NCBI GenBank assembly: GCA_963930775.1
Contig: OZ005694.1
Span: 5,263,054-5,327,053 of the forward strand
Length of the DNA stretch: 64,000 bases
Origin: Cliona cf. orientalis
Taxonomy: Eukaryota; Porifera; Demospongiae; Clionaida; Clionaidae
Direction of reading: 5' to 3'
The first letter of the stretch is position 1. Every line of letters begins with the position of its first letter. The notes under the pieces were generated by a model. It saw only the letters and a list, made by a program, of their open reading frames with translations, made no database searches and had not been told where the DNA came from. Shown here piece by piece: positions 31,461 to 62,233 of the stretch. The position numbers and the translations under genes were made by a program.

Positions 31461-31716
31461 ATGGCTGAATCAAAGCAGGCTTCAATTGGTTGGAAGGCGA
31501 AAATAGGATTTAAGAAGCCAAAAGAACTTGAGAAAAAACAGAAACAGGATGCAAACCGGGATAAAGAACGGAATGGAAGGGGACAGCTCAGCGACCGTGG
31601 CAAGAAGACAGGCCAAAGCTCGCTGTCTCCTGGCAGTCAAGGTAGTCGCATTCATGCCAACATTCAGGATGCAACACAAGATGAGGGAGCGGCAAAGCAA
31701 GCATCACCTGAAGAGG
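31461..31716 (+). CDS. candidate first exon, charged protein (unrecognised)
   Basis: ATG opens MAESKQASIGWKAKIGF, followed by a very basic Lys/Glu/Arg/Gln-rich stretch and a Ser/Gln-rich stretch ending SPEE, then a donor gtatta. The composition looks coding and disordered. No downstream exon was identified before a TIR element begins at 31827. May be a solitary first exon or a relic. Confidence 0.35.
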
Positions 31717-39040: not shown

Positions 39041-39273
39041 GTACATGCAATATACACCATAGCAAGCTCTGTTATTAAATTTTAGTACATGTATACATGT
39101 ACGTACCTTGGCTTGTTCCTCGGCCTCTGCCCAACCCTTCTACAACAGAAACGCCTATGCGACTCCAGTTGCACGGTACATTCATCTGTCCACACCACAT
39201 CATTGAAGTCTAGCCCTTGGTTTTCAATAGCCCACTGCAGCCTCTTCACTTTGTTTGGCTCTCGTATCATCTG

Positions 39274-39587
39274 CATGGGCGTAGGAACAGGGGTGGCCAC
39301 AGGGGCCAGGGTCCCCCCACTTTTTGAGCTGACATTTAATACCTGCAGTTCAGAATGAGATCCAATCCAGCTAGTCTGCAGTGACTAATATGAGTGAATG
39401 TGCCTCAATTGCTTCCAAATCTATTCCATTCGACTTACAGTTCATTTTTTTCATCGAGAAACTTGCAATAGCGGTCTTGATTGTGCAAAAATGGGCGTGG
39501 TTTGACATAAAGTGGGTGTGGTCGTAAAATTTCGCGTGCCACTAGATATTGGGCCCACCTAACCTTCAACATCTTCCTACGCCTATG
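39274..39587. mobile_element. 314-bp insertion in the Tc1 transposase, 5-bp TSD
   Basis: atctg at 39269-39273 and 39588-39592 flanks it. Ends catgggcgtaggaa and ttcctacgcctatg are imperfect inverted copies of 14 bp. Removing the insert and one atctg rejoins the transposase frame as AYCQMIREPNKV. Confidence 0.88.
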
Positions 39588-40426
39588 ATCTGACAGTAAG
39601 CAGACCCACGAAAAGTCCACCCAAGCGATGTACGGCAGCGAAGGATGGTCCTCAGTGATATGTTGTAACCCTTGCTGGCTAGTAAGCGGTGGAGCTGGTG
39701 CGCTGTCGTTTCGTCATCTTTCACCATCTGCTCATTCACTATACGCTTGATTTCTGCAGTTATCTTTGATGGTCGTCCCGATCCTGGCTTTCTGGCTATT
39801 GTCCCTGTCTCTTGGTAGTGCTTAAGAAACTTCGCTATTCCTACTCGACTGGCCTTCAACTGCTCTTCCTGCAAAAGTTTTGCGATGGTAGGCGCTTTAC
39901 GTCCCTTGAAGTAATGGTGGAGCATTCTCTGCTTGAGGTAGTCGCTGAATACCATGCTGCACGTGGAAGGAAAGACTGCTAGACACACTTTGTTCAAACT
40001 TGTACTCTTCGATTTTACACCTCCAGGGACATCCCCGCCTAGTCAATTACCCCACCCACACGTAGATACGCACCGGCGTTCTGCGTGCATACTAGCACGT
40101 ACGTAGTGCGTACATACGTATGCGTACGTAAAGCAGCTGTGCGTGCGTACGTAGCGCATACACCTACGCTCTATGTACTGTGCAAGTACAGTACTACTAC
40201 GCACGATCGATAAACGTAGTACGCTTACGCTACGTAAACTTTTTTTGACCTGTACTGTATCTCCATACTACGAATGTTGCATAAAAGAACTGGTGAAGGG
40301 GGGTGGCTAGCCACCCTATCCACCCCCTCTGGATCAGCCTTTGGGCCGCTTACCTAATATCATTATGATGTTCTGTTCTGCATCGGATGGAAGGTTCATC
40401 ACTTTTGAACCTGTACACATACAATG

Positions 40427-41100
40427 TATGTGACCGTATCTGGGAAAACCCGGCATATAGCGGATTCTATGATTTTTTAGTTACATGTAGCTACATATTA
40501 ATTTTGATAAGTTCTACCATAAAGCTAACCTACCTCAAAATTTCAGATCAATCGCACACTTCGCGTAGGAGCTAGAGCGCTTTGTTTGCGATCGTGCCAC
40601 ACGAGAAATTACGGTCCAAAGGCGTTGCTATGCACACGTATGGCGTTTCCGCATACTACGTGTGACCCAGAAATCAATTAAATGGACCTGGGCGGAGCCG
40701 TTCGAAATGAACGCAAAGATCGAGCAAGAGTTGAATTTTGTGGTTGACAATGACAGCTGATTATTCTTAGATGCCCAAGAAGCTAAAAAGGTGAGCAAAC
40801 ATACAGTAGTTCGATGAATCTAGCTGTATCTAGGTAGAGAATTCTAATTAGCACCCCTAGCAACGGGCTCCGTGTACGGCTGCCGTACAGACTAGGTAGG
40901 TCAAAACGAAGGCTTATTTCGTCTTGGTAACTTATGTTTACCCTCCGTAGGTGGTGGCCAAGGTTAGTAGAAAGGTTATTTGATATGAATATGACAAAAA
41001 CTCGAATTTGACAATTTTTGACCTGAGGTACTAAAAATGTGCATTGCGCTGCTTTGCGTGTTCTCGTGATATGCCGGATTTTCCCAGATCCGGTCACATA
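40427..41100. mobile_element. TIR element, tatgtgacc type (1)
   Basis: tatgtgaccgtatctgggaa, continuing aacccggcatat, faces atatgccggattttcccaga and ccggtcacata. About 32 bp with three mismatches. No transposase. A relative with the same first nine bases is at 42457-43146. Confidence 0.82.
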
Positions 41101-41458
41101 TAATTTATGGCGAGTTTTAATCTACATGATATCATTGCAGATGCTAGTTACTGCTTTCATAGGCAATTTAAATAGGCTGTGAGGTACCATGCAACCAATC
41201 AGTCTCGAGATGAAGAGAATTCATATCATAACTGTAGTTAGTGTTCATGCCTGGCCTAAAGCAACAAGGCCTTTTAAAGAAGTTTCCACACATGTCTTTA
41301 CCAGCGCCAAGAAGCAAAAATATTCTACGACGTTCCGCACACAAGACCCCAAGCACTCAGCCACCACCATTGTCACTGCAGGCTGCTGTTATTTCTGTAA
41401 GCTTATAGACAAATCCTAGACACTAATTCTGCTAACCATTCTCAACCCAGCCTCTGAC

Positions 41459-42284
41459 TAGTCTCGTCCCCAGACCCTCCAGTGCGCGAGAAGAGAGAGG
41501 GAGGGTCTGAAACATAATCCCGGGCGGAAGTGTCCTGAAGGAATGTTGCACACAAGTAATCGTGACGCGTAATCTGGCTTTTGTGGTTTCGCGCGCGTAT
41601 AAAGAATGCAAATCACGTAGTACCGTAAACTCTGGTTAATAAGTGCATGCGCTTATAGCGGTAAACGGAACGACAGTATGCGCTTAATAAAGAATGCGCT
41701 TATGTGGCACATAACCACGCCCACAAACGTTTGGGCACGTGATGGATGCGAGGCCCAACGGTGGTAGCGCCCAGCGCTAGCGCTCGATCGATCAAGCGTT
41801 TTAGCGTTTAGCTACAGCTGGATGACGAGTGCTGGCGATTTGTCTGAAATTCGATCTTCTTGCATGACAGCTTTATTCGTGGCCATTATTTCTCCAAAGA
41901 TATCTGGACTCCATGGCTATTATCTTTGATGGCACATACTGTCCAGACGGTCAAGGTCAGGTTCATTGAACGCCACGCCTATTAAGCGCATGCGCTTAAT
42001 AAACAATAGCTTATGACGAGAAGAGAGCATGCGCTTAATAAATAATGTGCGCTTAATAACCAGAGTTTACGGTATCTTACTGAAGTGCGCACGCGCACGA
42101 GCACTGCATGCAGCACGTTTGGGCACGTTTTGCCGTCCATTCGAGTAAAGTGGTTTAACACCCTGTATTGTGGCCAATCAACACCTGTCGCGGAATTTCT
42201 GCCTTTGGGACACTTCCGCCCAGGGTTATGTTCCAGACCCTCCCTCTCTCTTCTCGCGCACTGGAGGGACTGGGGACGAGACTA
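41459..42284. mobile_element. TIR element with 9-bp TSD (MULE-like size)
   Basis: gcctctgac flanks it at 41450-41458 and 42285-42293. The ends tagtctcgtccccagaccct and agggactggggacgagacta are inverted, and the arms extend over about 75 bp (through gggcggaagtgtcc / ggacacttccgccc). The host site is a repeat (ctaaccattctcaacccagc ... ctcccagcac) also present at about 10290. A 9-bp duplication fits Mutator-type insertion. A second MITE sits inside. Confidence 0.88.
41621..42074. mobile_element. nested MITE, TIR taccgtaaactctggttaa
   Basis: taccgtaaactctggttaat and its inverted copy taaccagagtttacggta bound 454 bp, TA-flanked. The subterminal regions repeat the tgcgcttaataa motif several times in both orientations, as expected for transposase-binding repeats. 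Confidence 0.88.
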
Positions 42285-42456
42285 GCCTCTGACCTCCCAG
42301 CACCTCCGACACTAACCCTGCTAACCATTCACAACCCAGTCCTAGACCTCCTATCCATACCATCTAGCTTAGCAATTGTGACGGCGTATGTACCAGCGTG
42401 TCGCGATTGGGTTGGGATCGCATTTGCGTTATTACAGACTTGAGTGTCAATAATTA

Positions 42457-43146
42457 TATGTGACCCTCCACGAGGAAACCAAGCATAATGCGCGGAAAAA
42501 AAATTTTGAGTTAAGGCCACCATTACCAACTGCAACCTTTGAACTATTGCTCCAGTAAATTTGAAGTCTCTAGCCCTTGTAGTCATGGAGATATGAGCAA
42601 ATATATACCCGGATCGCCCGTACTAAAGTATTGCAAAAAATTGCAATGAACATTGCTACGTACGTTGCACTCGGAAGTCCGTATATTCCGATGCCGTTTA
42701 TGGTAAATACGTGGCCCCGCCCACTAAGTCAAAGAGCCAGATGGCTGCCAAAACGTTGGAAAGAGAGCAGCAGCCGGCGTTTCGATGGAAAAGAACGAAA
42801 AGATAAGTGTGTCTATAGATGGTTAGTATACAAAATCGAAGAAAGAAGTGACTGGAGACTTTTTCTGTGCAGCTGCCGTGCTTGCCTAGCTGCAACTATG
42901 GCAACGGCTCCGTATCATGGACGATCAATGTTAGCTACACGGCCGACTTCTTCGAGCCATAACTCGGTAAGTATAGCGTTCTAGAAGCTACGAAGCAGAT
43001 TTTTGTGTAGAGGAATGAATGATTCCTCTATCGATCTATACCAAAAAGTGGAAAAATGATAATTATCACCTTGGGCAACTATTTTGGCCTGTATCTCAGA
43101 TTGATATCCAGCACATTATGCTTGGTTTCCTCGTGGAGGGTCATGA
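42457..43146. mobile_element. TIR element, tatgtgacc type (2), around the first kinase-gene exon
   Basis: tatgtgaccctccacgagga, continuing aaccaagcataatg, faces cattatgcttggtttcctcg and tggagggtcatga. About 34 bp. The candidate first coding exon of the UBAN-kinase gene (42898-42966) and its donor lie inside. Confidence 0.8.
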
Positions 43147-46100
43147 ACATATGCCCAAGAAATTTCACTGAACGGTATACCATAAAACCTAAACACAGAC
43201 TTATTATGTGCATACTTCCTTCCTGTTGTAGTGATGTCTAATAAGTATATATGTGCCCAATAAAGACAACGGTGTGTAATATCAAATGCCTCAGTTATTC
43301 TATGAGACCGTAATAATTATTGTGTCATGCATTGCCACATGCTCTGATGTTCTGAGTCATGCCCTACATGTTACTGAGCTCTGAATAATCTCATGAATCT
43401 ATACTTTATGATTATCATTTTCCATATAGGGTAATTTAAAAGTAGCAAGTGAATGGGAAACTGATATACTTCGAAAGGAGTTGAAGGATGCCAAAGAGAA
43501 GCATACTGATGAAATTAGGCAATTGCAGGCTGCTCTAAAGGACAAGGATGAGCAAGAGGAGACTAAGCTTCTCTTCAAATTAGATGAACTTGCTATAAAA
43601 CATGCTGACGAAGTCCAAAGGCTGAAAGCTAAATTAAGGGAAAAAGATGAGCAGTGTACTAAAGTTATTGAGGATATCAAAGCCGAGTATGAAGAGAAAC
43701 ACAAAACTGAAGAACACCAAAAGAAAACTGAAGTAGAAGCAAAGGTTAAGAAACTGGACATTGTTGCTAATGGTGTGCTGCGAGGAATGAAAAAAGAGAT
43801 CGAAACATTGACAAAGAATTGTGAAGAGAAGGATGCTACTATTGCTGGACTCATGAAGGAGTTAGAGAGGATGAAGAAGGAGAGTCAGCGAAAGGATCTC
43901 GAAACAGAAAAGCAATTACAGAAATTTGAAGAGTGGCACAAACTAATGATTGATGATGCCGAGCAAATGCCGACTAGTGAAGCTACACCTGGTGTGTCTC
44001 AAGAAACTGTTGTTGTAAATCGTGAAAAACAAAAACAATTTAAAAAGAATTTTTTGCTTGTGACTGAAAAGAACATGAAGATGGAAAGAAGCCTTCAGGA
44101 ACTCCTTGAGAAGCTGGAAGATAGAGATAAACATATTAAGGAACTGCAGTTGAATGCAGGGGACAATTCCATTTTACCAAAAGTATACGAATCTTTGAGT
44201 TCTGAAGAAGTAGCACAATCGACTGAAGAACTAAGCCATGCTGAAGCCATAGATGAAATCCAAAAGCAAAATGCTATTATCTCGGAGCTGAGAAGTCACG
44301 TAGCTTCTCTTCAAACCAAGATGGGTACTTTTGAAAAGACAGCTGCTGAGAACAGCAAAATGGAGCGACATGGCAAAGAACAGAGTAAAGTGGTAATGGA
44401 ATGGAGGCAAAAATACGAAGCTGCAGAGGTAATATCTGGTAGATAGATTTATTATTATAGCATGTGAAAGTATGAAAGTACATGTATGCTCTAGTATTCA
44501 TGTAGTTAGGGGAATGTGAGCGCCCCCTGAGAACTCTTTCACATGTACATTGTACTTGTACGTCTGAGATCTCATACATGTACATTGTGTGTTATTACCA
44601 GCTATTATGGGAACAAGTAAAATAATATACTTGGAATTTTCTGTGGGGGAGGGGGCGGGGTGGGCAGGAGGAGGTTCCCCTCTTACCTAATGTTAATCTC
44701 TCATATACATTTAACTGTTTGAATTGCTTGTATATACTTTAGAAAAAAGTAAAGGAGTATGAAGATGAGGTTGAAATTTTGAGAGGTGAAGCAAATTTTA
44801 ACAGAGGACAGCAAAAAGGTTTGATGCATTTATTGTTCGAGTTTGTTACACTTATTATTGCTGAATGAATTTTATCCAGACTCCATTGATGTCCAAGCAG
44901 TGCAGGTTGAGAGTGAAAACCAAGTTGAGGCTCTAAATGCTGTTATAAGCTTACTTGAGGTATGCATAAAGTTTAATGTCACGTTCATTTGACATTCAAA
45001 CATTCAAAATGGTGTTTATTGTGACAGATTGGACAGTGTTGGAACAGATATCTCAACACTGTAATAGCTATTGAATTTAGTAGCAGCTTTAAATGCCTGT
45101 AATTGATCCAGGTGCTCACTTACACCTGTACAAAACTATAGAGCTCATAGAGCACATAGCTACCTTGCATGCCATAGCAATATCACCCATGGCTATACCT
45201 CTTTTTAGAGGCCTCTATTCTTTGAAGTTCAATCTCTTGCTCTCTGGTTCCTTCTGAGGTCCATGAGACTTGTGCTAGAGTGGAGAAGCTCGAGCTTGCA
45301 CAATAGACTCCCTAGTTCATACAACATGTAGGTACTAGGTGGACATGTCCAATGTAGGCGTGTCCGACATACCCTGCATGATTTGTAACTCCTCTGGCGA
45401 TTGTTAAGAAAGAATATGCAGTGTTTTTTTTTCGCTGTCTTAGACCATTAAATTTTTATCCCACTTATTGACCATGATACTGCGTGATACATTAGCATAA
45501 ATGTTGAGATTTACTGATTTTTATGCTGACAGACGAAGACAAACCGATTGCTTTACCCCTTGTGGCTCATGTGCGCACACGGGGTAAAAATTACCAGAAG
45601 GCGAAGTTGGGGCATTCGGTACATTTTGTGTGTGGTCTACACTGTACAAAGCAGGTGTGCAGTAGTGCTCACGTGCTTCTAGGCTCTCCCATTTGTAACT
45701 CTAAATCTGGTTGGGATGAGGCTACATCATCTCTATAGCACCTCTATATTTCTTTGGTACTTGTAACTTAAAGTTTTGGCAGTGGCTTGTGCAAAGTCAG
45801 GGAACGAGGCTAAGGATGGTGGTATGAAAAGTAAACAAGAATAGTAGTAGTAGCTGAATAATGATAATATTAACGTTATCATAGAGTCGGTACATGTATA
45901 AGTCTGCTACTATTAGACTTCCTTGTGCCACCTTTCATGTAGGTTGATAAAGCTGAGCTAACTGTGAGATGTGCGGCACAGGAGCAAACTTATGAACATC
46001 TACAACAAGAGAATAAGCATCTATTGCAGAAATTGCGGGAGCTAGATGAGAAACACAACCGCCTTAAGGCTGTATATGGTACTGTAACACAGCAACTATC

Positions 46101-49100
46101 ACAGCTCCATAAGTATCGGGGTGAAGTAGACGCTATGAAGAAACAGGCTGCTGCGATAAGTGAAGCTATGACTGCGAAGACTGTTGAAGCGAGTGATCTG
46201 AAGGATGAGAAAGATTCACTGCAAACAATGTTAGATGAAATAGCAGAGGAGCTGGAGCAGCAAAAAATCCAGGTATTGTTGCTAATAATAATTATTATTC
46301 TCAACCAATCTGTTGCATATATGCATTGAATATGGAGGTGAAAAGAGCCATTCACTACTGTCCACTCCTTGAGTCAACTAGGATGATGGGGGTGCATTTT
46401 GTATAGCCCTTATGCTTTCATCTGACCAAATAGTGGAGTTTACATTGTGAACTCTTAATTTTTTCTATTTAACATTAATTTTCATGTTTAAAAACTATTT
46501 CGTAGGAATATCCATGTCAATTTTTGCATGAATTTTGAGATTAAGCTTCATAGCCACCATCAACTTCATATATTTTTGAATTACGTGGTGTATATAAATG
46601 TGGTTCGTTGAGTCTACTCTCTCACGAGCTGATCTCTCAAGGACCAACTGCGCATGCATACAAAGTCTGACAGTATAATTATCCCATGTAGCTCTGGTGC
46701 TAGCTTTGTACCCAGGCCATTCAAGAAGGGGAAGAGAAAGCGCCTGGTACACATTGCACATGCATGCACTGGGGTCTCCAAAGCGATTGGTGTGTTAATT
46801 ACCATAGTGATTGTTTATGAGTTTTGCATGACGCGCAGTTCTATGGATGATAAATGCCAAGTATAATGATAGTATCCAATTACCCCAGTTTGCAACATTA
46901 AAAGCTGGGAGATCGAGAGGGGGCCTGGGGACGAGGCTAACCCCAGTTTGTTCTGGGGTCCCGGCATGTATGTAGCATGTATATATGTGCGTGCAATGTG
47001 CACCAGGCCCTTTCTCCTCCTCTTGAAGGGCCTGGGTACAGGTGCATAACATCCATGAATGCTAGCTAACAATTATAATATAGTTGGGCATAGCTTGAAA
47101 TAAACGAAGATTCTTTGCGGACAACTTAACTGTTCGGTAAAACTTGCCAATGTTTATACTAGATGCTCTAGTCATCCTCAGGGCAAAAGTGAAGTGAGGT
47201 GCGAAAATGCTGGTGTTCTTATGGGCGTGGCTCCTGCGCTCGCACGCCCATGCGGTTTGATGTAGAGGCTAAAGCGCCGGCGCGATTAGCGCTAGCGCAT
47301 TTGCCCCCGCCCCCTAGCTTCTTCATAGTTGTGATCCAGTTGCCCGGCAACGATGGAATGATGTGTATAGTTTTAAAGTAAAATAAACAGACAATCGATA
47401 GCCGCAACAGATATCTGGTACTGGCTGTTGATTGTAAATTACTGTGCATGTACATCGATGACTGTCATGATGATTACATTTTTTTCTGTAGGCTGAAATA
47501 TACAAAGAGGACTTTGAGAATGAGCGAAAGGATAGAGAAGCAAAAGCTAGCGCATATGAAGATGAGAAAGCTGCTATGAGTATACAACATCAACAGATTG
47601 TTGATGATTTGAAACAACTAACTGAAGAATTAAAACGTCAAATTGAAGATTTGAAGATTAAAGTTGAAATAAAAGAGACAAAGATGAAAGGACAGTGTGC
47701 AAAATTGGAAGAACAGATTCAAAAGTTAAACAGAGAATTAAGAAGGGTAGAGGAGCAGAGTGAGCAGGATAAGGATACATTACAAGCTGCTCTTGTTGAG
47801 AAGCAAAGCTTAGAAGAAATTCACTCTAACTTGGATGATAAATATCGAGAAAAGGAAGCTCACCTTGAGAAGGCACTAGCCCACAAATCTGATTTAGAAG
47901 ACCAACTACAGAAGTCAAGAGCAAATCATGAACATGAAGTTAATGAAATGCAAGAGCAGCTTCAGCAGCTACAATCAGAGAGTTTCTGTGCTGAACTACA
48001 ACAGCAAATTACCATAGCCAATGAACACATTGCAGCCTGGAGAGGTGACTGTCAAGCCAAAACACATCAATTAAAGCAATACAAGATACAAGTGGACCAC
48101 TTCGAAATTTATGTGGACGGTTTGATGGCTGAACTGACAGATAACAGGGCTAAGATTTCTGAGTATGAGCATCAACTTGGATACTACCAGGACCAGGTCA
48201 GACAGCTTGATAAGCACAAGATGCAATGATTATTATTATAATGCATGTAATACGCTTTAATAATTACATGTATACGCGTTTAAGAGGCCTGCTCAGCAGG
48301 CCACCGAGTCTCGAGCAAAGCGAGAGACAAGGTCTCTTCTCTTGTCATAGTCTGGTAGTAGATTTGATGTTCAAACAGAGCAAGAATGTCGCCATTGCAG
48401 TGGTGAGTTCGAACAGCTGCTGTTAACCAGCATTGAGGGGCAGTGTGGTCTAGGAAGTAATGGGTTCAAAGTTCAAGCTGCCGCCTCACTATACTAAAGA
48501 TTAACGTACATCTAGGGAGATAGATTTTCTCTGAGTATGTGAGCTTACTGTGAATAACTAATGCATATTAGCCACATTATCCCATGATTGTAACATCAAA
48601 CATACTTGCTTTGTATAGAACATTAATTAAGTACATCATAATCATAATGACTATACTTGTGTCAGCACCGAACTGCTGAGAAGCAGTGCTTAAAGTGTAG
48701 GTACAGTGTACGTATGCTGTAGAAATCATAATACATTCAAAACTGACGGTCTTAGAAGCTTTGCACATACCCACAGATAGTATTGTGAATAGGAAATTCC
48801 ATCCCAACAGTCCGAGGGGAGGGTGATGCTGATTAACACATATATACTATAGCTGCCATGGTTATTTGTACTGGTACAAAGATCAGGGTTTCATTTTCAT
48901 CAAGCGGGGGGGGGGGGGGGGGGGGGGTGGTATCCTCTGCCAGGAAATTTTTTAACTTTTCAATCTCTGATACTGTTTCTGCTATAAGCGCTGATTGCCT
49001 GCTAATTGAAGCCGCACGTGCCCACGCAGTAAATGAACACTGGGCGTGGCGGATGGCTGATAAGTTCGCGTGTACATTCAAATCTGCCTGCTGAGGCTCG

Positions 49101-52100
49101 CTCTGCTGGGCGTTCGACTTTCTAGGCATCGTATAGGCTCTCGATTCTATACTTATCAGTTTTCTTACTCTTTAGCTGTCCATAACCAAAGATTGCAGGC
49201 TTCTCAACTTGAATGTGCACGTGTTTGATCTCCGCGTACTTCCGTGGACTATACCGTGATATTGGGCGTGCCCGTACTTCCTGTGCCCACTTTAATTGAA
49301 TTTTTGAACTAATGAGCTCATTAAGAAATAATTAGGCCTTATGTATGGACACAATGCCTTTAATACTGAGACTGGCTTTTAGTGGTGGGAAGAAGCCTGT
49401 CAGTGATATCCACTAGTTCCCTCCATTTTATGCACTCAGTAACAATTTACTTTTTTGCGGTTATTAGGTAATTATGAGTAATTATGATGAAACCTATGGT
49501 GTAATCTATGAGGTAATTATGAGAAAATTCAGGGCCTCGATGGAGCCCTTCTGGGACTTAAACTTCAGTAAAATATGTCGAGTATCTTGCGTGTGTATCC
49601 AGCGAATACCTTACAAGCAGCGTGTTGCCTTCTCTGACGAGCAGCGACGGCCGAACTTCACGCATTCTCTACGCTGACATAATCCCATGGATATACCGTA
49701 TAGCTGGAAATTTTCGAGGGAGCCAATTTTCGCGGTTTTCGCGGTTGACAGGCGACCCACGAAAATTAAATCCGCGAAATAAAACCTCTAAACGTACGTA
49801 CGTTCTCGCAACGTCGACGCGTGCGATAACAGGGGGCGTGGCCATCGTGGTGCATGCCGCTGCTTGATCGATCTAACAGCTGGTTTTCTTCACACTAGTT
49901 GAGCTTCTTCGACACAAATGTCTCTGTTACGTTATTTCAAGCCTTCAAGCGACTCTACCAAACTTCCTGATCCACGTGGCCCTCTGTCTTCGAAAGTGCC
50001 ATCATCGTCTATAGAATCGGCTAACACAGAAGTGAAGCGAGCGATTGAAACTCAAGGGAGCGGTGCAGATCGACGAAAAAGAGGCTGCTATGACAAATTT
50101 TCTCCTGAACTCAAGTTTCAGATCGGTAAGCATGCTGCAGAGAATGGAGTGGCTGCAACGATGCGCTTTTATGCTAAGAAATTCGTCCTAAAGGAAAGCA
50201 GCGTACGAACCTGGAGGAACACTTACACCCGAGAGTTGCATTCAAAGAAAGACGATATCACAGCTTTGAAATGTCTGCCTGAGAAGAAGAGAGGCCGCCC
50301 TTACCTTTTAGGTGAGGAACTAGACAAGCAAGTGAGAGCTTATGTTGCGTCCCTGCGAGCTAACGGTGCCGTGGTAAACACAGCCATAGTTCTGAGCTGT
50401 GCTGAAGGGATCATCAAGAACCACGACAGTAATCTCCTTGCTTCATATGGCGGACACATCGTCCTCACGAAAGCCTGGGGGAAGAGCATCTTACATCGTA
50501 TGGGATTTGTCAAACGTAGAGCTAGCACTAAGGCGAAAATTTCGATTGAGAATTTTGAAGAAGTGAAGGCGCAGTTTCTGCTGGATATCAAAGCTGTTGT
50601 TGAGATGGAAGACATCCCATTTGATTTGATCATCAACTGGGATCAAACAGGAATCCATTATGTACCGGTAGGATCATGGACAATGGATAAGGAAGGATCA
50701 AAAAGAGTAGAAATAGCTGGTGTTGACGACAAGCGGCAAATAACAGCAGTGTTTGCAGGGTCCCTCACAGGAGATTTCCTACCTCCACAGCTGATTTACA
50801 AGGGAACAACCCAGCGATGTCTCCCAACAGTTCAGTTCCCTTCTGGATGGCATATCACATGCAGCGAAAACCACTGGTCAAATGAGAGCACCATGAAAGC
50901 CTACATTGAGAAAATTCTCCTGCCATATGTCCGTGATAAGAGAGAGGAGTTGAAACTTGCCGCTGATTATCCAGCATTGGTTATCTTTGACAAATTCACA
51001 GGCCAAGGCACAGAGAATCTCCTGAAGCTTCTTGAAGAAAACCATATCTATTTTGTTATGGTTCCCGCAAATTGCACTGACTGATTGCAGCCTATGGACA
51101 TTAGTGTAAACAAACCTGCCAAAAATTTTTTACGACAGCAATTTCAGGAGTGGTATGCTGATAAGATCTGCAATCAACTTAGCCAAAAGGAAGGAATGTC
51201 CCCAGTTGATCTGCGATTGAGTATCGTGAAGCCGTTGGGGGCACAATGGATGATCAAACTCTATGACTACCTCAAGTCAAAGCCGGACATCATCAAGAAT
51301 GGCTTTAGAGGTGCTGGTATATCTGACTATCTTACTACCGGTAGTAATTAGTTTCACCACTTATTGCCATAGTTAACAGGTGTATGTGTACATTATTTAG
51401 GACTAGGTTAAAATATTATTATGAATATTACATTGATGTACATGTGATTGTTTCAAATGAAGATAATGGATTAAAAGTGGCTACTAAGTACTGGGAAGGA
51501 ATGAAAGTTGTGTGTGTATTATAAAAATGATGGTATGTAAGCTAAGCACTAGGAAACAAGTAAAGGTTCTCTTCTTCAAAGCACTTGATAAGGTGACTTC
51601 GCATTGCTGTTTGGTTTAGTTTTATACTGGCAGGGTCTACTCCATGACCAATTGCGGTGGCGTAAGCAATGGCAAAGACTCCACAGTCTTTACCTCCTTC
51701 CTGCTTTTGGCAATCGAGCATTTTGACCGACGAAGAATGAAACAAGTTGGAAATCACATTCATAGTAGAGGTGTCTAGGGTGCCATACAGAGAGTCACAT
51801 ACAAGTACTTCATCACCGGTGCACCCAACTGTGGAAGCAACAATCCAGTGATCTCCACGGCTATGAATGACTTGAAGCTGATTCTTGGGCGGTACATTGG
51901 CTTTAGGCTTGTACTGGAGAAGCGTAGACTGTAGGCCATTCACACCTGGAAATTGCTTTTTCAATAGTGATTGTGCAAAGTCGATAGAGAGATCTGACAA
52001 TTTCTCGCCACTACTGATCCTGCTGACTTCAGTTTTGGGCAAGTTAAGTTTAGGCTTCTTCTTGGGTGGCTCGTTTTCTTTATCTGCACAATCATTTGAC

Positions 52101-55100
52101 GAGAAAGCACGCTTTAGTAGCGCCCTAGCCTTATCGATGTCGCTGTGAGCTCCTGTCAGTGTCAGCGTGCAGGGTACTTCTAGCCCCCCTTGAGGAAGAT
52201 CTTCAGAATAACGTCTGCCACCAGTAACTCTGCAGCTGATAGTACCACCTCGTCTTAAGAACATTGAACACACTGCTGATATCTTTCTCGGGACGTGACC
52301 GACGATTATTCCTGATCTTACAACAGCCACAGCGAACGGATCGCGAAAGTTTTCCACTTCTCTTACACAAGATAGCTCCTCTCCAACATCAGCACACCAA
52401 ATCTCCTTGTACACGTGGTAACCACGGACCATAGCCTCGATCATATGCGACACTCGTGCTATTTCTCGATCTACAACGATCGCTGTCACAACTTCTCGGC
52501 CGGCAGAGATTGAGCCGCGGCGCGCGTGCAGTAAGAGGCGGAGCCTAACGCGTTAACGGATATTGGGGGTGGAGCAACCCTGGAGCGTTCATCCGCGAAA
52601 ATTAGATCGCGAAATCTTTGAAGATGGGCCTTCCGCGAAAATTGGATCCCTCGAAAATTTCCGGCTATACGGTATATGGATAGCCCTGCACTATATATAG
52701 CACGCACCATGAGCAGCGTGCAGCCGGACCAATCTAGCTGTACTGCACTGTTGAGTTCTTCTTAGCTTTGAAATTTTTCACTATCGAGGTCCAGAGACAC
52801 TCAGATTCCCGATGATCCGAGGCTAGTCTGCGACTGAGGTGCTGGCATCGTATACTGTCCAGTGAAGTGAACCATAGATTATATATTCCCCTCCCCGGGA
52901 TTGGAAACGGTCACGTGAGCGCCATATGTACAGCTACAGTACTTCTTCTCGCGGGCAATCCGCGTTAGTGTTTATCGCGCTAAAGCGAGTGTTGCTTCAA
53001 GGGCTCTGAGCGAAGAGGAGAAGAGAAATCAACCGTTAGTTGGCTATCAAGGTTAGTAATATCAATCTTAAACCTCCCAAATAAGCGCTACTGCATGTTT
53101 AGAGCTCATAAGCCACTCAGGCATTGGCCATTGTCCGTTTTCACACCTGCATGAGGGTGTTTACCTTGGGTATTGGTAGGCTAGTCTTCTGTTTAAGAAT
53201 TTGTGGGACAAAATACGATCACTAGTGCATCTTTTGGACATCACTAAGGACCAGTGGTGCTCCAACAATGTTACTCTATTGCATGAATGACAGCCATCTC
53301 TTGTATGTACAATGTTTTTGTGTCAAAATTGATCTAAGTGTGAAATTTTCGTTCTGATTGGTCATATACTTTGTGGGACAGTAGCTCTCTTTCTATTCCA
53401 TTAAATAGCACAAATATTGTGTTCAGATATACTACTAAGGACCTTGTTTTGCATGAACATTTTCTTTTGATGCATACTTAAGTATACACACTGATTCTGC
53501 TATCAAACAGGTGCCTAAAAGAACATGGGCCGGAGAAAATTTAGATTGAGTGTCCACCGTAAAAATGAAGAAAGAAAAAATAATTTGGATAAGTTGAAGC
53601 AGACTGTAGAAGAGCCATCATTAACAGTGACCATCCCTAGAAATTTGATCGCCATCTCATGTTTTAAGATCTCGTTTCCAGTCTCTGTGTACAGGGATGG
53701 GTCCATCAGCTCAGTTGACCAGCTGTATTCACGGCTTGCATCATTTCCTCTGCCCGAATCATGGATATTGGCATCTTCTAAGCCACTCATTTTATCCAAG
53801 ATGCGTGTGAAATCTCAAACCACACAAGCAGATGTCTTATTCAGCCTTAGCATAGATGATCGACTGGAATGGTCCTTGTCTCTCCAGAATGTGTCCCTTG
53901 ATCCCAATAGGTGTCCCCTTCTACGGAAAGTGCCACATGCTCTAAATAGAACTAGCGCTGTGTATGACCTGCTCAACTTTGTTGATACGGCAAAGATTTG
54001 CAAGGGCAATTCTGAGCAGAGGCTCCTAGACCAGTGGAAACAGCGATCGTTGACCCTACACGGTTCTCATGGTAAGATGCAAACCCCATATTATTACTAT
54101 TAATAAGAAATTATGGGAATACTATTTTTTTCTCGTACAAGCTCTAAGAGAGGATTCTTGGATGACCTGTCTTTGCCAACTGGTGCTACAGTGAGGCACA
54201 AACACTGCCAGCTATTACTTCAAAGTGACAGTGTAGCTGTTCGTTGCTTGGCCTGCTCTGGTCTCCGTGCTGCTCTCACTGTTCAAGCTACTCGTATGCA
54301 AGGCACCAACCGTACTCATTCCACTCCCTCTAACCACATCAATTACAGGTATAATTACAATGAAAAGGTTAATTATAGGGGTTTCATTCATGAAAGAGGG
54401 GCATGCAAATGCATAGCAGAAAAGTTCAAGGGGGGCAAACACACCGCAAATAATGTTTCTCATTACATCAATGATTATTTAGGTATCAACCCATTCCCAC
54501 CCTGATCAGTCGTATGAGCCAAGTACATCGCCAGTATCGCTTAGTATCTAAGCAACTTGACAGACTGAAAAAGAAAATAGCAGAAGCATCGGAATCAAGT
54601 GGTGTTGAATTGGATGAACACACTCACGATGATTTTAAGAACATGATTACGTCATCGAATGGATCAGCGTTTTTTGAAAGTCTGCCTAAGGATTCTTTCC
54701 AGTACGTCTTCTGGCAGCAGCAACTGGAAGCTGCAAGTAAAAAGAAGGCCCAGAACATGCGTTGGCACCCCTTGATGATTCGGTGGTGTCTATATTTACG
54801 GCACAGGTATATCAAAGACTCATGCATACACTGTAATATCATTATTATTACTGTAGGTCAAGTGGTGCATATGAGGCACTACGGGATTCTGGTTGTATAA
54901 AGCTCCCATCACAAAGAACACTTCGAGATTATACGCATTATGTGAATGCTTCAACTGGCTTCTCTAGTGAGGTAGACAAGATGCTAATTCAAGCGGCTAA
55001 AGTCGATACATGTCCAGAACGTGAAAGGAATATCATACTGCTCCTGGACGAGATGCATATCCGGGAGGATATTGTATTTGACAAGCATAACGGAGCTATG

Positions 55101-58100
55101 ATTGGATATGCGAAGTTGGGGGATATCAACGACCATCTGCTACAATTTGAGCAGTCACTTACAGAAGACCAGCCTTCTCCTCCTCCACTTGCCAAGAGCA
55201 TGATGGTATTCATGGTGCGCGGCCTATTCAACAAACTCCAATTCCCATATGCACAGCTTCCGTGTGCCAGCTTGTCAGGAGATTTGTTATATGAGCCTTT
55301 TTTGGAAGCTGTGGGACGAGTGGAACCTGTGGACTCAAAGTAAGTTAATACAAACACAAGTTACCTAAATTGACACAAATTTGTGTGTATGTGTGTCTGT
55401 GTGTAATGCATATAGGTTCTCGGAGCAACTTTGGATGGCAACTCTGTCAACCGACGCCTGATTAAGCTCCATGACCCCTCGAGTGATTTAGTGTACAAGG
55501 TCAGAAATCCATTTGCAAAGGAGGAGCGCTACCTATTTTTCTTTCCCGACCCGCCTCACTTGATTATGACGGTCAGAAATTGCCTGATGTCAAAGTGCCG
55601 CAATCTCTGGGTAAGTTGATTGTGTTACCATTCTAGATTATTGATCACTCGAATGTACTATGATAACTATTGTACAGAATGATGGTTGGTTCATTTCCTG
55701 GAGCCACATCTGGAAGCTGTATGAACATGACATGGCTACTGGAATGGGTATTCGTCTGGTCCCTAAGCTGAAGTATGAGCATATCTCTCTGAATTCATTT
55801 TCCAAAATGCGGGTTGATCTTGCTGCCCAAGTAAATAATTAATAATTAAGTACCTTACATGTCATATTATATTAAGTCCTGAAGTTATAATATTATTGCC
55901 AATAACAGGTTTTGAGCGAATCCGTTTCTAAAGCCCTTCAGATTAGTGTTGGCAGTGAAGCCTCAGAAACTGCTAAGTTTGTGGGGATGATGGACAAATT
56001 TTTTGATTCATTAAATGTCCACAATTAATCTCATGGAGTGCGTGCACGGAAAAGGTTTCAGATGCCATACACTACGAGCAATGACATGCGTTTGAAGGTA
56101 TGTAAATTTCTACACAATACCAGATTATTGACTTTCACTACTATAATAGTGGATTGAAGACGAATTTCTACCATACTTGGACAAGTGGGAAGAATCTGTG
56201 AAGAGACGTCCTGGTTTGACGAAGACTCAACGAAATAATATGTTGCTTAGTACGGAAACCAGATTGGGCTTACGAATGACATGTAAGTGTATTAAAAATT
56301 CAAAATTGATTTCATTATGATTGTATAAAATTAATTTAGGCAAATCTTTTGTGGAGCTTGTGAAGTACCTGTTTCAGCAACCAGATGTTAAATCATTTTT
56401 GAGTCAGCGTCTCTGTCAAGACCCTTTAGAAAACTTTTTTGGCTGCCAACGGCAATGAGGTGGGGTTCATGATAACCCAAATGTTCAAGAGTTTACAAGG
56501 AACACCCAAGCTCTTCGCGTCATAAACTCTTTTTGTCGACCTACAAGGGGAAACTGCCGTGGAAGTCAGGATGAAGGCACAAGCTTGAGTTTCAAAGAAA
56601 ATATTAATGAACCACTTCCCAAACGTTCCCGCAGTTCAAAACGTACAAGCAAGCCCCTAGGACTTTGTTAATAATTAAATTTTTATCATGATAATAATAA
56701 TTATTATGTTTATACACTGTTTAATATTGCTATTATATTACAAGAATACAAATTAGCTATTCTTTATCTTCATCGGAATTGGGGGTGGCCTTGGATTTTC
56801 CAGCTTTTGATGGGTTTGATGTCAGGTGCTTTCTGATTCCCTTCGACTTTTGAGTGGTGGTCTTCTGGGCAGTCTTATATTTTTCTAACCAAGCACTAGC
56901 ATAGGAGAAGCCTCGGATCCTCACCCAGTGGTTGACAATCATTTGGAGTAGTTCTGCTGCACTTTCTTCCTCCCACTCAGCACTTACAATCGACCATAAG
57001 AACTGCACATCTTCATTGTCTTGTACTTCGCTGGTAATCTTATCCAAATCTTGCGTACCTCCTTGACGTATGTGCTTTCGAAGCTCATACTCCATAGCCA
57101 CAAAAACTTCGAAAGTTGTGTTGTTCACTAGGGTGAGACCTCCACGGTTAATCAGCTGTATCCACTCGGTAGATTCTCCATTTTCGTCTCCATTGTCAAG
57201 CAAATCTAACAGGCACAGCAAAATATCCTCCCTGAGAGGATGTGTTGACTTTTTTAGCTTTTTCTTCAACATTCTTGGTACACAACCAGCAGCATAGCGC
57301 AAAGCACATGTCTCGGCATGTGTAAGTGGCTCAACAGCAACAGCAGGCAATGGATCAAGTGGATGGTGTAACTTAATGAGCTCCTTGAATACGTAATGGC
57401 CCACGTACTGACAGAAAATTGGAGACATCTCAGCCTTGATGCTTTCATATAGAAAAGCCTTCCAATCTGTCGCGTAGGGGTCTGAAGATCGCAGCTGATG
57501 GTATGCAGTCCACATTCTTTCTCTTCGTACTTTCTGGGATCTAGCTCTCGACTGCATGCATGTACACAAGACAGTCACTAACTTAGTCTCGAATTCAGAA
57601 GCTTTAGCTGGATATTTGGTAAGCCAAATCGAGAGATCTGTTGCAATCTTATGGGCTGTGATGGCCGGTTTTGATCCTAGGGAAAACGAATCATCCTCCA
57701 GCATAGCATTTACTCCTTTCAAAAGGAGGCCACAAACAGCTACAAGAAATAAAAGTAATGAAAAATGGTGCCTATAATTATAAACCGGCCTTTTCTTACC
57801 ACTTTCGCTCGCCATGCTACTCTCATACATCTCAGGAGTATACCTCACGAACTTTCGCCCTTTCACTGCTGTTTCCAAAAAGAGCCCACTCACGAACGCG
57901 GACTGCCCGCGCTAAACGGTGTTAACGACCCCCGTTTCCAATCCCGGGGAGGGGAATATATAATCTATGAGTGAACCCACTATATTGACGACCTTTACCA
58001 CATACACCATTTCAACTATGCAGCTACTGAGTGCATGGTCAAGTTTTTATTTAATAGTCAAGTTACTTTAGAACGGGGTGTGTCTCCTTTTGCACGTAGC

Positions 58101-61100
58101 ATGAAGCTTCAGACAGTTTATGGGTTAAAAATGAGCCACACCATTGATTTGGACACTTTCATTATTTAAACTTTTACGTATACATGTACATGTATTGTGT
58201 GTATGATTAGTGGCTCCTCTCAAGGGGGGGGGGGGCAGCCAGCTTCCACTCCCCCCCCCCCCTCCTCACCTAAAATTAATGAAACCCTGAAGGTCTTAAG
58301 CACATAGTAACATTGATATGATCACCATCAACTAGCAAAGTTTCTGTTCGCTCTGATTCTCACTGACTTTGTCATGTGCTGCTCAATTCATCTGGATATT
58401 AATGGTGACGTTTTCTTTCCATTAGCTAAATTTTATAGCTCGATTTCAAACGATGCTTGTCCTTTACTACTAACAATGACTAAGATAACCATTCCTTCCC
58501 TCGAAAGCATAGATTTTCTCTCCCTTTACAAAAGTGGAGATTTGCAGTGTTTATCTCAGGTACTCTTTTACGTCGCATGTTTGCTGATCACTCTAACTTG
58601 AACCTCTGGCTTGAGTAGATCTAGTCTAGAATGATGCTATCTTCCCACTAGTATATCTTACATAGAGGTATAGAACAGTACTTATGAGAGGAGTAAGTAG
58701 TAAGTAGTGCCATTGCTCGCTCAGTGCCAGGTAATACGTTATTGCATGTGGTGTATTGGATACCACTGGATGTGCAAATTTTTGGGCAACAAACTGAGCC
58801 ATTACCTGACGCAATTAAATCAGTTATGCCAAACCTGAAACATAGCTAACGAGGTGTTACACTGCATGTTGTCAAAGCAGTAGAAATCCTTCTAACATAT
58901 ATTAGCAGGCATTGATAAGGGGGGTTGACTCAATTCTATGCCACTACGTGGTATACGACCATCAGCATAATTACATCAAAACTGGCTATGTACCTTTTGT
59001 ACTTTCGAGGCCAGAGCAATTCAAATGTGACATCCAATGATAATCAAGAGTCAGACAAAAGTTTTATTTCGGATCACTCAACAGGGTGGTTTGCTGTCAC
59101 ATGGGACAGGCCAGTGGCTGTCTGCATGTAGACACTTTGCCCATGCATCAAGCCACCTTGCACACCAATTTCTGCCTCTGCAGCGTGCAAAAATTGGGGC
59201 CAGGGTGGGGGAGCTCCCCCCTCCTCCAAAAAAGAAAGAGAGAAAGGGGAAAAGAGGAGAGAAATCCTGATTGTAGCTATAGTATTACCTGATCATGTCT
59301 TATTCTATTTTTATGCAGACTAATCAAGCTCTATTGCAATACGGAAGAGCTGTGAGCCACCTTGAAAGTCAATTGCAGGTAGCTATGATATTATGGTCAC
59401 TCTAGGTGGCAATTATTAGCATCTGCTGGTATTCTCAAGGGTATACAGTTAAGGCAGGAGTCCAGTCCAAAGTAGTCTCAAGAATAGCCCCGCTCAGGAG
59501 GTTGCCAGTATAGCACATGCATACATTAACCTCAGGAGACCTGACTTAAATAGTCTCATCCCCAGACCCCACCCGCAAAAGGAGTCTGGTACACATTGAG
59601 TGCTTTTTGAGGCGCACAGGATGCAGCATATCATGTAATTGTCATGACAATGCATTGCTTTGGCATGACTACATACATGTATCAACGGCTCTCACATGCA
59701 GCAATAGTTGGCAAAGGCATGGTGTCACATGATAATCACGTGCAAACCACATGGTGTGAATCTGATTGGTGCGATAGAACTCGGAAATGCCACATCAGCA
59801 AGCCTCAGAAAGTGCTCAATGTGTACCAGACCCTTTCCTCCTTTTGGGAATGGGGTCTGGGGATGATTACATAACAATGCCAAGAATTTCAAAGCTGCTT
59901 TGAATATCGGTGAGGTTTAGTGTGCTCCAGTAAAGCTCACTACGCGTTCATTTAACATAGCTAATAATCGTTCACTAATTGGTTGGCTACATGAGTGGGC
60001 TGGGTAATAAGCATGCCAATATGAAGTACAGTCATCATAATACAATATATATTTTAAGTCTAGTCTCATTTCGTTCCACGATCGAAAGTTGCATTTCAAT
60101 GCCCACCACTGGCCGTCTAGAGCGTGGATAACATCAATATTTTTGATTGACTTACTCCAATAAATTAATCATCGTGTGGTTTGCTGACCTTCATAGGCTT
60201 GACTGCATGATACTCGAGGCGTTTCTTTGTGGGGTCGTTTAGTGCTCCGGCAAATAGCTTCTTTGTTAGTCCGCCTATCGTTTGACCTTCTCAGTACAAA
60301 GTAGGCCAAATGCAGCGCATGCATGCAGCTAATGAGATTCACAAGCATGTAATTAGCTGATACAAACAAGCTGATAAGACTGCTGGTAGCAGAATAGAAG
60401 CTCCCTTGCCTTAACTATCACTATTGAACCTATAGCCAATCTATAGGTGAACGTCCCGTCTGTCTTGTCTCTACAAAATCTGCTGCCTACCTCGTCTATA
60501 TAAATATGTCGAAAATTACATGTATGTGTCTTGTATAGGATTCCTTATGGTATTTACAAGGTATGACTTTTGCTAAATCAGATAATTAGAATTTCCTACC
60601 TTTCTGAGTTTACTGTAGTGACTCGGGCACAAGCGCCCACTCCCGAGTAAGTGCCAATGTACCGCATTTCAAGGGATCTATAGATATAATATAGCAGCTT
60701 CTATACGAACGTATGGAATTTATATCCCATGCAGGAAGTATCCATACAGGCCAAAATCACGATTAATTTTATATTCGGGTGCCTACCCAGGACACTATAT
60801 AATTATATTATTATATATAACAAATATGTTTAACATAATCATGGGATGATGTGGCTAGTACACATGTTCATCTATTAATAGTACATGCTCACAGAGAATA
60901 TAGCGACACGTGGTGCTGTTACTTACTAAAACCCATTCTCCTTTCAACTGGGGATTGACATGTTTTGGTTCATTGCCTTACTGCATGTGGCTCGTACAGT
61001 CCATTATGAATCTGGGGATGAGAGTATCATGGCTTTGGCCACAAATTTAATGTTAAAACATATTATGGCCTTGTATCTAATTGGGTTACTAGCAGGATCG

Positions 61101-62233
61101 AGTAAAAGAAAAACCCTCCTGCCTCCCCCCCCCCCCCCCCCACTTATATTGGTAATTTTTACTATTAACTTTTGTAGTGGGTTAATAATGAAGTACTGAA
61201 GTTTTCAAATCAAGTTGCCAAGGTTTGTTATATCTATTGAACTTATAATACGTCATTAATTTAATACATACTTTGCTAATAGGAAAATGATTTGTCTCCC
61301 TTCATACCAGCTGGTATGAATGCCCCTCCTAATGCAATAGCAGGCATTGGACGAGGAGCATATGGAAGCGTAGATTTGGTGAAAATCAATGGAGTAGAGT
61401 GCGCAGCAAAAACGATTTATAATGCCCTTGTAGGGGGAAGCGTGAGCTCTGCAGAAAGAAGACCAATGCAAGAAAGATTTCGCCAAGAGTGCATTACAAT
61501 CTGTCGAATGCGTCATCCAAATGTTGTTCAGTTTATGGGAGTATATTGTAATGATCATCAGAGTCTTGATTTGGTGCTATTTATGGAGCATCTACCCATT
61601 GATCTTCATAAATGTTTAGAAGAGGCAAAAAGGAGGAATTACAACATTCCAATTCCAATGAAACTGTCCATTCTCATTGATATCTGTCGGGGTCTTTTAC
61701 ACATCCATAGCTTCCTATTTCTCCACCGTGATCTTACAGCAAAGAATGTCCTACTGACTCATCACGTGAGAGCAAAGATATCCGATTTTGGTAATTCAAA
61801 GCTATACGATTTATCGCAAAAGCTTTCCACAGCTCCTGGTAATCTTGCGTACATGCCCCCTGAAGCTAAAACTGAAGCACCAAATTATGACACTGCACTC
61901 GATGTATTCTCATTTGGAATTTTGACCTTATTTGTTGCCATTCAAGAATTTCCAGAACTACCGATGAATTTGTACTTTGATATCCCCCGTGATATTAGAG
62001 ATCGAGGTGAAGAAGAAGTGTTTATTCGTGGTCAGTGGGTTTCAAAATTGAAGGAACGATATCCTCTTTCTCCCTTGATTTATCACTGCTTGCAAAGAGA
62101 TCCTTTAAAACGACCAACAGTGAACCAGCTTAGGGAGAATTATCTTGGCAGTTTGAACAATAGGCTATCGATAGAAGCAATAGCCAAAGCACATACAGAA
62201 ATGCTTCTTTATTTCAATGAAGTACTCCCCTAA
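42898..62233 (+). CDS. UBAN-type coiled-coil protein kinase
   Basis: Exons: 42898-42966 (tentative start MATAPYHGRSM), 43430-44428, 44743-44818, 44880-44959, 45943-46272, 47492-48196, 59319-59378, 61178-61222 and 61283-62233. All introns are GT-AG and phases agree; about 1,100 residues. Residues up to about 790 are almost continuous coiled coil (KDAKEKHTDEIRQLQ and similar). The exon at 47492 begins AEIYKEDFENERKDRE, which matches the NEMO/optineurin UBAN signature DFxxERxxRE, used there to bind linear ubiquitin. The C-terminal exon is a TK/TKL-like kinase: glycine loop GRGAYGSV, Lys in CAAKTI, HRDLTAKN (61724), DFG (61784-61792) and MPPEA. All catalytic residues are present. The 11-kb intron 6 contains the nested transposons. 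A ubiquitin-dependent signalling kinase is a reasonable inference. Confidence 0.82.
45000..45942. other. intron 4 of the UBAN-kinase gene
   Basis: Nearly 1 kb without an exon. No clear TIR element seen. An open frame at 45523-45738 has no splice support. Confidence 0.45.
46708..47040. mobile_element. TIR element in intron 5 of the kinase gene
   Basis: gtacccaggccattcaagaa ... gcctggtacacattgcac faces gtgcaatgtgcaccaggc ... ttgaagggcctgggtac. About 55-bp arms, imperfect. The cctggtacacattg block is shared with the element at 59550-59870. Confidence 0.75.
48833..49129 (-). CDS. weak candidate exon in the large intron
   Basis: The minus-strand open frame begins MPRKSNAQQSEPQQADLN and contains AIRHAQCSFTAWARAASIS and EIEKLKNFLAED, then a Pro run encoded by the G/C homopolymer at 48905-48927, with a possible donor gtaccag. 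The composition resembles coding sequence. There is no partner exon and no recognised family. Confidence 0.22.
   Translation of the reverse strand: MPRKSNAQQSEPQQADLNVHANLSAIRHAQCSFTAWARAASISRQSALIAETVSEIEKLKNFLAEDTTPPPPPPPLDENETLIFVPVQITMAAIVYMC
49918..51351 (+). pseudogene. pogo/Tigger-type DDE transposase with one nonsense codon
   Basis: A single-exon frame opens MSLLRYFKPS. An HTH region follows (FSPELKFQIGKHAAENGVAA; RTWRNTYTREL), a GRP hook (KKRGRPYLL), then a CENP-B-type second helical region (LSCAEGIIKNHDSNLL). The DDE_1 core shows NWDQTGIHYVP (first Asp), ALVIFDKFTGQGTENLL (second Asp) and VPANCTD before LQPMD (third acidic position in the pogo pattern). TGA at 51082-51084 replaces the residue between NCTD and LQPMD, which is commonly Arg or Leu in relatives. 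After it the frame runs to 51351 (SVNKPAKNFLRQQFQEWY). About 476 codons in all. Otherwise intact, so inactivation looks recent. Confidence 0.88.
51542..52489 (-). CDS. HIRAN-domain + Ulp1/SENP-like cysteine protease
   Basis: A 315-residue intact frame. Residues about 18-112 resemble a HIRAN domain (VRGYHVYKEIW; ENFRDPFAVAVVRSG; GHVPRKIS), known in HLTF/Rad5-type proteins where it binds DNA ends. A basic PKKKPKL at 142-148 looks like a nuclear signal. Residues about 160-310 match the Ulp1/SENP C48 fold: His214 in GDHWIVAS, Asp232 in VCDSLYG, Gln263 six before Cys269 in QKQEGGKDCGVFA. The catalytic set is complete. It lies convergent to the pogo transposase, within the same TIRs. The start is the first in-frame ATG. 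A SUMO- or ubiquitin-directed protease acting with the transposon is inferred; the substrate is unknown. Confidence 0.82.
   Translation of the reverse strand: MTAIVVDREIARVSHMIEAMVRGYHVYKEIWCADVGEELSCVREVENFRDPFAVAVVRSGIIVGHVPRKISAVCSMFLRRGGTISCRVTGGRRYSEDLPQGGLEVPCTLTLTGAHSDIDKARALLKRAFSSNDCADKENEPPKKKPKLNLPKTEVSRISSGEKLSDLSIDFAQSLLKKQFPGVNGLQSTLLQYKPKANVPPKNQLQVIHSRGDHWIVASTVGCTGDEVLVCDSLYGTLDTSTMNVISNLFHSSSVKMLDCQKQEGGKDCGVFAIAYATAIGHGVDPASIKLNQTAMRSHLIKCFEEENLYLFPSA
53525..56672 (+). pseudogene. P-element/THAP9-type transposase, degraded
   Basis: About nine exons (53525-54070, ~54145-54350, 54484-54807, 54857-55340, 55416-55612, 55678-55829, 55909-56098, ~56150-56282, ~56339-56672). Diagnostic blocks in order: coiled region RLVSKQLDRLKKKIAE-like; MRWHPLMIRWCLYL; LRDSGCIKLPSQRTLRDYTH; LLLDEMHIREDIVFDKHNG (first Asp); LGATLDGNSVNRRL; FFPDPPHLIMTVRNCL; LVPKLKYEHISLNSFSKMRV; DPLENFFGCQRQ then GGVHDNPNVQEF. 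Breaks: TAA in the NVHN..SHG block near 56027, TGA at 56456-56458, and phase mismatches at the second and fifth exons. No obvious THAP zinc finger was seen at the N-terminus. Confidence 0.82.
56757..57893 (-). CDS. accessory protein of the P-like element (unrecognised)
   Basis: Exon 57893-57800, a 60-bp GT-AG intron (57799-57740), then exon 57739-56757; about 358 residues. Mostly helical and charged, with blocks GLLLKGVNAMLEDDSF, ALRYAAGCVPRMLKKKLKKS, EWIQLINRGGLTLVNNTT and EVFVAMEYELRKH, and a Lys/Thr/Ser-rich tail ending SDEDKE. Similar proteins of unknown function recur in invertebrate genome annotations (from memory). The intron length is a multiple of three and contains no stop, so retention is possible. 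The frame is intact while the facing transposase is broken. It lies wholly inside the 38-bp TIRs, with the start about 75 bp from the right TIR. Confidence 0.72.
   Translation of the reverse strand: MSGLFLETAVKGRKFVRYTPEMYESSMASESGKKRPVYNYRHHFSLLLFLVAVCGLLLKGVNAMLEDDSFSLGSKPAITAHKIATDLSIWLTKYPAKASEFETKLVTVLCTCMQSRARSQKVRRERMWTAYHQLRSSDPYATDWKAFLYESIKAEMSPIFCQYVGHYVFKELIKLHHPLDPLPAVAVEPLTHAETCALRYAAGCVPRMLKKKLKKSTHPLREDILLCLLDLLDNGDENGESTEWIQLINRGGLTLVNNTTFEVFVAMEYELRKHIRQGGTQDLDKITSEVQDNEDVQFLWSIVSAEWEEESAAELLQMIVNHWVRIRGFSYASAWLEKYKTAQKTTTQKSKGIRKHLTSNPSKAGKSKATPNSDEDKE
58037..59318. other. 3' part of the large kinase-gene intron
   Basis: Contains facing G and C homopolymers at 58223-58262 and no convincing exon. 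Confidence 0.5.
59550..59870. mobile_element. TIR element of the agtctcgtcccc type
   Basis: tagtctcatccccagacccc ... ggtctggtacacattgag faces ctcaatgtgtaccagacc ... ggggtctggggatgatta. About 55-bp imperfect arms. In the intron after kinase-gene exon 7. Confidence 0.82.
60618..60793. repeat. palindromic repeat, low confidence
   Basis: gcccactcccgagtaagtgcc at the left and gggtgcctacccaggac at the right are related to the palindromes at 3190 and 10515. Confidence 0.35.

Follow-up and report, generated by a model that had tools for sequence, protein, structure and literature searches.

The window analysed here is a stretch of 64,000 nucleotides of Cliona cf. orientalis (C6:5263054-5327053 within a 216.8-Mb genome). 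Eight exons between 43430 and 62233 can be joined through their splice sites and phases without an internal stop, and the addition of an upstream exon, E0, yields one frame of 1166 residues that runs from the ATG at 31461 to the stop at 62233 in nine phase-compatible GT-AG exons, again with no internal stop. The features of this predicted gene are as follows.

31461..31715, plus strand: E0, putative first coding exon, with ATG, 85 codons, donor GAG/gtatta, phase 0
43430..44428, plus strand: E1, 999-nt coiled-coil exon in phase 0, with acceptor atag and donor gtaata
44743..44818, plus strand: E2, coiled coil, 76 nt, GT-AG, phase restored together with E3 (76 + 80 nt)
44880..44959, plus strand: E3, coiled coil, 80 nt, GT-AG, phase restored together with E2 (80 + 76 nt)
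45943..46272, plus strand: E4, coiled coil directly ahead of the UBAN-like core, phase 0, four paralogous places
47492..48196, plus strand: E5, UBAN-like core AEIYKEDFENERKDRE at the start, coiled coil after it, substitute donor CAG/gtcaga at the end
48218..48229, plus strand: lost donor, AAG/AT in the window, then an in-frame TGA at 48227-48229
48230..59318, no strand assigned: E5-E6 intron, 11 kb, containing reading frames of mobile elements (DDE_1, a HIRAN protein and a TNP/P-element-like RNase H)
59319..59378, plus strand: E6, 60-nt exon TNQALLQYGRAVSHLESQLQ, with an 89% DNA match at C6:5148690-5148755
61178..61222, plus strand: E7, 45-nt exon WVNNEVLKFSNQVAK, both splice sites kept in the sister locus P2
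61283..62233, plus strand: E8, last exon, with a complete protein kinase domain (115.1 bits against PF00069) and the stop codon

The model is surer for the other exons than for E0, which is probably the first coding exon; its last 80 nt show an 82.5% DNA match to the first exon of a neighbouring paralogue, P3. Paralogous DNA was also found for E1 (C6:5139495-5139948 and 5131653-5132194) and for E2 and E3 (C6:5129551-5129769), and the dN/dS of E4 against P3 is 0.28. The first-pass annotation had the peptide AEIYKEDFENERKDRE opening an exon at 47492, which is where it lies, and had proposed phase-matched exon ends at 48196, 59319-59378 and 61283, all of which are GT-AG and in phase 0. What this annotation missed is the 45-nt exon E7 (61178-61222) and the five upstream exons (31461-46272). 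Elsewhere in the window, the minus strand carries a frame of ankyrin repeats at 26298-27245 and, at 28148-28714, an N-terminal domain of the TRADD-like kind. The mobile-element frames, all in one intron, lie at 49921-56671 (DDE_1, a HIRAN frame with a tail that is protease-like by eye, and a TNP/P-element-like frame).

The kinase domain of E8 is complete, as had been claimed from the first reading, and its catalytic motifs are intact: GRGAYGSV (GxGxxG), AK, HRDLTAKN (HRD), DFG and PPE. Among the 56 PDB chains listed for E8, the closest solved kinases by sequence are TNNI3K (1.2e-19) and JAK2 (6e-17 and weaker), and none is an IKK or TBK1 chain; judged by these closest solved relatives, the E8 kinase falls outside the IKK/TBK1 type. 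The likeness of TNNI3K and JAK2 to the window gene is limited to the kinase, and neither protein is known to have a UBAN coil. The window kinase has a single close paralogue, P2, which is 86% identical to it, the next being about 45% identical among the at least 126 places listed, a lower bound given that 126 of 1047 candidates were scored. The pairwise dN/dS of the kinase between the window and P2 is 0.25.

The case for a UBAN-like coil is built from several observations. In a six-frame reading of the window the strict pattern Y..DF..ER..R turns up once, and it appeared in none of 20,000 shuffles of the 730-residue coil in which heptad positions were respected. Taken alone, E5 scores 17.1 bits against the Pfam family CC2-LZ, which ranks after the generic coil families TACC_C and ATG16; with E4 and E5 joined, CC2-LZ (PF16516) becomes the top family with 23.9 bits, yet this is under the curated cut-off of 35.3. 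Also under this cut-off are P2 (21.9 bits, with two generic coil families scoring above CC2-LZ), P3 (26.8) and C6:5180 (16.4), together with two kinase-first loci described below, C5 (31.1) and C16 (15.5), while C6:5113 (37.4) and C6:5435783 (42.5) are above it. The genome listing for PF16516 contains at least 20 places and misses the C16 core. Because the score of the window coil lies under the curated cut-off, we name this coil UBAN-like and do not treat it as a certain member of the family. A single-sequence search with E5 gave no UBAN protein among its PDB matches. A profile of five aligned paralogues (the window, P3, C6:5180, C6:5164 and P2, the C1:6263 coil being left out as the exon before it was not located) matched 16 PDB sequences at E<=1, all but one of which (15/16) are TNIP2, NEMO or TNIP1, the best being TNIP2 (E = 0.0048) and the next NEMO. 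In the alignment no variation is seen at the core Y, D, F and E or at the first R, and the last Arg is a Lys in two of the five; the Y..DF..ER..R core within the coiled coil is present in both the window and P2. As far as sequence can tell, the UBAN likeness is real, though every individual score is weak.

P2 lies about 130 kb from the window, on the minus strand, with its kinase at C6:5145399-5146355. On that same strand follow one another a coil exon, an E4-type exon, a UBAN exon, a 60-nt exon, a 45-nt exon and the kinase, six exons that are all GT-AG and in phase 0 and that encode 881 residues up to the kinase stop, counted from the coil exon, the first exon of P2 lying outside the model. 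The UBAN exon of P2 ends with a strong donor, AAG/gtgagt. No E2- or E3-like exons were found in P2 within the compared stretch. The long introns of the two genes differ in their inserts, which are hAT-like (by eye) in P2 and of the DDE_1, HIRAN and TNP types in the window. In DNA searches, which diverged copies would escape, E6 and the E7-E8 stretch were found at the window and P2 only, besides a 20-base chance match. Between the window and P2, E6 and E7 together have a pairwise dN/dS of 0.19 (15 changes in 35 codons), and E5 has one of 0.51. The frame ahead of E6 in P2 reaches a stop 20 codons back, with no Met between. The exon order and phases shared with P2, the differing inserts and the lack of a Met ahead of E6 are hard to explain without a common transcript for coil and kinase.

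UBAN-like cores form a cluster in the 5.1-5.44 Mb region of C6, and zinc-finger exons cluster with UBAN-like coil exons around the window (C6:5.10-5.44 Mb). Within the window, a coil fragment at 3633-4827 on the minus strand looks, by eye, like the 3' portion of a further gene of this array. The neighbour P3, whose pieces extend from about 5142.9 to 5119.5 kb on the minus strand, is 82% identical to the window in E4 and 76% in E5; within its UBAN exon (C6:5125033-5125974, minus strand) part of the coil is duplicated, as seen from two overlapping matches. At the P3 end, the E5 counterpart, a short coil exon and a last exon are in phase, with more exons between them possible, and lead to ICPMCRQQFRIGEIQKYRQHVQHCHGT and a stop. 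The zinc finger of P3 matches nine places; eight of these matches, seven on C6 and one on C16, are strong. A CxxC...H...C finger is present in P3 and in C16, and the window gene and P2 terminate in a kinase instead. Pfam matches of the P3 and C16 finger are to other finger families and under the cut-off, and against the PDB the top match is a consensus finger, followed by TAX1BP1, with neither NEMO nor OPTN among the 16 matches. Since these matches are other fingers, the kinship of this finger to that of NEMO and OPTN is argued from its position and spacing. The window gene is apparently a tandem paralogue of the C6 UBAN scaffold genes in which the finger end has been replaced by a kinase, and the simplest history would be that a gene of the coil-UBAN-finger type was duplicated and its finger end then exchanged for the kinase.

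Three further loci, C5:5863, C6:5113 and C16, carry a kinase ahead of a UBAN exon. At C5:5863553-5867491 and C6:5113320-5117066, both on the plus strand, a kinase exon with an ATG, a coil exon and a UBAN exon follow one another in phase 0 without a stop, giving predicted frames of 393 and 406 residues so far, the 3' ends lying beyond the models. The joined UBAN regions are those that gave 31.1 bits at C5:5863 and 37.4 bits, above the cut-off, at C6:5113; between these two loci, conservation is confined to the kinase and UBAN exons at the threshold used. The C16 locus (C16:2506951-2501573, minus strand) is the cleanest fused gene model that we have seen, with five phase-0 exons in 5.4 kb and a 781-residue kinase-coil-UBAN-finger frame. 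Its core, ALTYKADFEEERRDRE, is intact; the low CC2-LZ score quoted above is that of the region, and CC2-LZ is not listed for the full-length C16 protein at E<=0.1. Against the PDB, the C16 UBAN region has NEMO or TNIP2 in 7 of 11 matches (best E 0.16). These kinase-first gene models may miss intermediate exons. No UBAN core was found on the kinase strand in the stretches read around the kinases C15:7057, C2:4319 and C9:4945, and the 1.5-kb flanks of 30 kinase loci contained no UBAN pattern, which is a weak negative, as the UBAN exons of C5, C6:5113 and C16 lie farther out.

In a tree of 30 of the at least 126 kinase places, the window-P2 pair stands apart from the C5-C6 pair, and a single clade for the window, P2, C5 and C6:5113 kinases is not rejected (p-AU 0.158); the C16 kinase is in the tree and stayed outside the four-member clade test because its UBAN exon was found later. 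Because a single clade is not rejected, two fusions in opposite orders are a bold reading and not one that has been shown. We see an evenly balanced case for the proposal that ubiquitin reading and a kinase were joined at least twice in this lineage, with the kinase last in the window gene and P2 (coil-UBAN-kinase) and first at the other loci (kinase-coil-UBAN, followed by a finger in C16). The products would be kinases that respond to ubiquitin by themselves, as a parallel to the NEMO-IKK and OPTN-TBK1 pairs.

The weak single-sequence and Pfam scores of the window, which are under the cut-off, are what would be expected if this were an ordinary dimerisation coil, its UBAN likeness being due to chance or its ubiquitin binding being gone; this is improbable in view of the absence of the pattern from all shuffles, of the NEMO or TNIP identity of nearly all PDB profile matches and of a core that is mostly invariant across five paralogues. 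That the UBAN coil and the kinase belong to adjacent genes at every locus, their phases matching by chance, is very unlikely: exon order and phase are common to two loci with unlike intron inserts, the P2 frame ahead of E6 reaches its stop without a start codon, and in the reverse-order loci the kinase exons with an ATG stay open to their donor, after which coil and UBAN exons, and in C16 finger exons too, continue in phase.

The window copy itself calls for more caution, in that its usual E5 donor has been lost. AAG/GT at the end of E5 is kept in four of five paralogues (P2, P3, C6:5180 and C1:6263) and reads AAG/AT here, and the frame read past 48196 meets a TGA ten codons later, so that the splicing of UBAN to kinase in this copy is uncertain. 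The 48196 donor of the first-pass annotation is indeed a GT in phase 0; it is a substitute site. CAG/GTCAGA scores 2.49 there, the top phase-0 site among the 24 GTs of the stretch; this score is level with the second lowest (2.5) of the 25 donors of the model, which come from these same, mostly predicted genes, and is exceeded by that of an out-of-phase GT at 48044 (4.36). There is an in-frame ATG just ahead of E6 in the window, at which a separate kinase start is possible. Together with the large mobile elements within the E5-E6 intron, and with the fifth paralogue, C6:5164, in which the usual E5 end is also gone, these features agree with a window copy that has lost the fusion, its UBAN transcript stopping at the TGA at 48227 and E6-E8 being relics or a separate kinase transcript, while the fusion survives in P2 and at other loci. 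We hold such a loss to be rather unlikely, as E6, E7 and E8 have kept their frame and splice sites, the kinase has a low dN/dS against P2, and a phase-0 GT is present at 48196. It is fairly likely that the window copy is fused via the substitute donor, as opposed to having recently lost the join, and we regard the splicing of E5 to E6 from 48196 as probable and not as proven.

In conclusion, the window gene (31461-62233) and its sister P2 probably belong to a small family of genes that fuse UBAN and kinase; in these two the finger end was apparently swapped for two small exons and a kinase, and the product of the window gene is a putative ubiquitin-gathered kinase. The original proposal that a UBAN coil and a kinase reside in one polypeptide is supported by the window frame, by the same exons in P2 and by the three reverse-order loci, and for the window copy it is weakened by the lost donor. 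The comparison that went with it, of a NEMO scaffold fused to its own kinase, goes too far, as the kinase, by its closest solved relatives, is of a type other than IKK/TBK1, the NEMO N-terminal kinase-binding domain stays under its cut-off in an exon-wise search and the coil profile fits TNIP2 best and NEMO next. For this kinase-binding domain (PF11577), the best match of the exon-wise search of the genome reaches 17.8 of 23.2 bits (on C13), and introns may hide it. Similar searches, in which introns weaken a negative result, gave nothing above the cut-off for TBK1_ULD (PF18396) and zero matches for the IKBKB SDD (PF18397).

We propose that the coil would dimerise and that the UBAN core would bind linear or K63-linked ubiquitin chains, so that the fused coil would bring the kinase directly to the chain; kinase domains gathered there would trans-phosphorylate and then phosphorylate their targets. 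Such a protein would be a one-piece counterpart of NEMO for IKK, or of optineurin for TBK1. In known systems, UBAN coils form dimers that attach to linear or K63 chains and bring a partner kinase to high local concentration, and the IKK and TBK1 of vertebrates are activated by ubiquitin chains via separate scaffold proteins. NEMO, which is not known to contain a kinase domain, associates with IKK as a subunit of its own; in our alignment it shares with the window gene a UBAN core of the same spacing in a coiled coil, and a finger is found in the window relatives P3 and C16. TNIP1 and TNIP2 (ABIN), the latter being the best PDB match of the paralogue profile, are also not known to have a kinase domain. 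Optineurin is described in PMC10907724 as a ubiquitin-binding adaptor that serves as a platform for TBK1 activation, two proteins there compared with one predicted polypeptide here. The passages of PMC10694592, on NEMO and optineurin across animals, that were considered here describe no fusion. Among the literature matches listed, judged by title and start of the abstract and with most subscription papers and preprints outside this scope, there was no UBAN-kinase fusion.

If this reading is true, the sponge gene would be a one-piece sensor-kinase, in which ubiquitin recruitment alone can serve as the regulatory input. It would offer a simple system for proximity activation and a Rosetta-stone hint on the origin of scaffold-kinase partnerships. 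As the C6 array carries kinase or zinc-finger ends on the same coil, domain replacement may be traceable there among recent duplicates.
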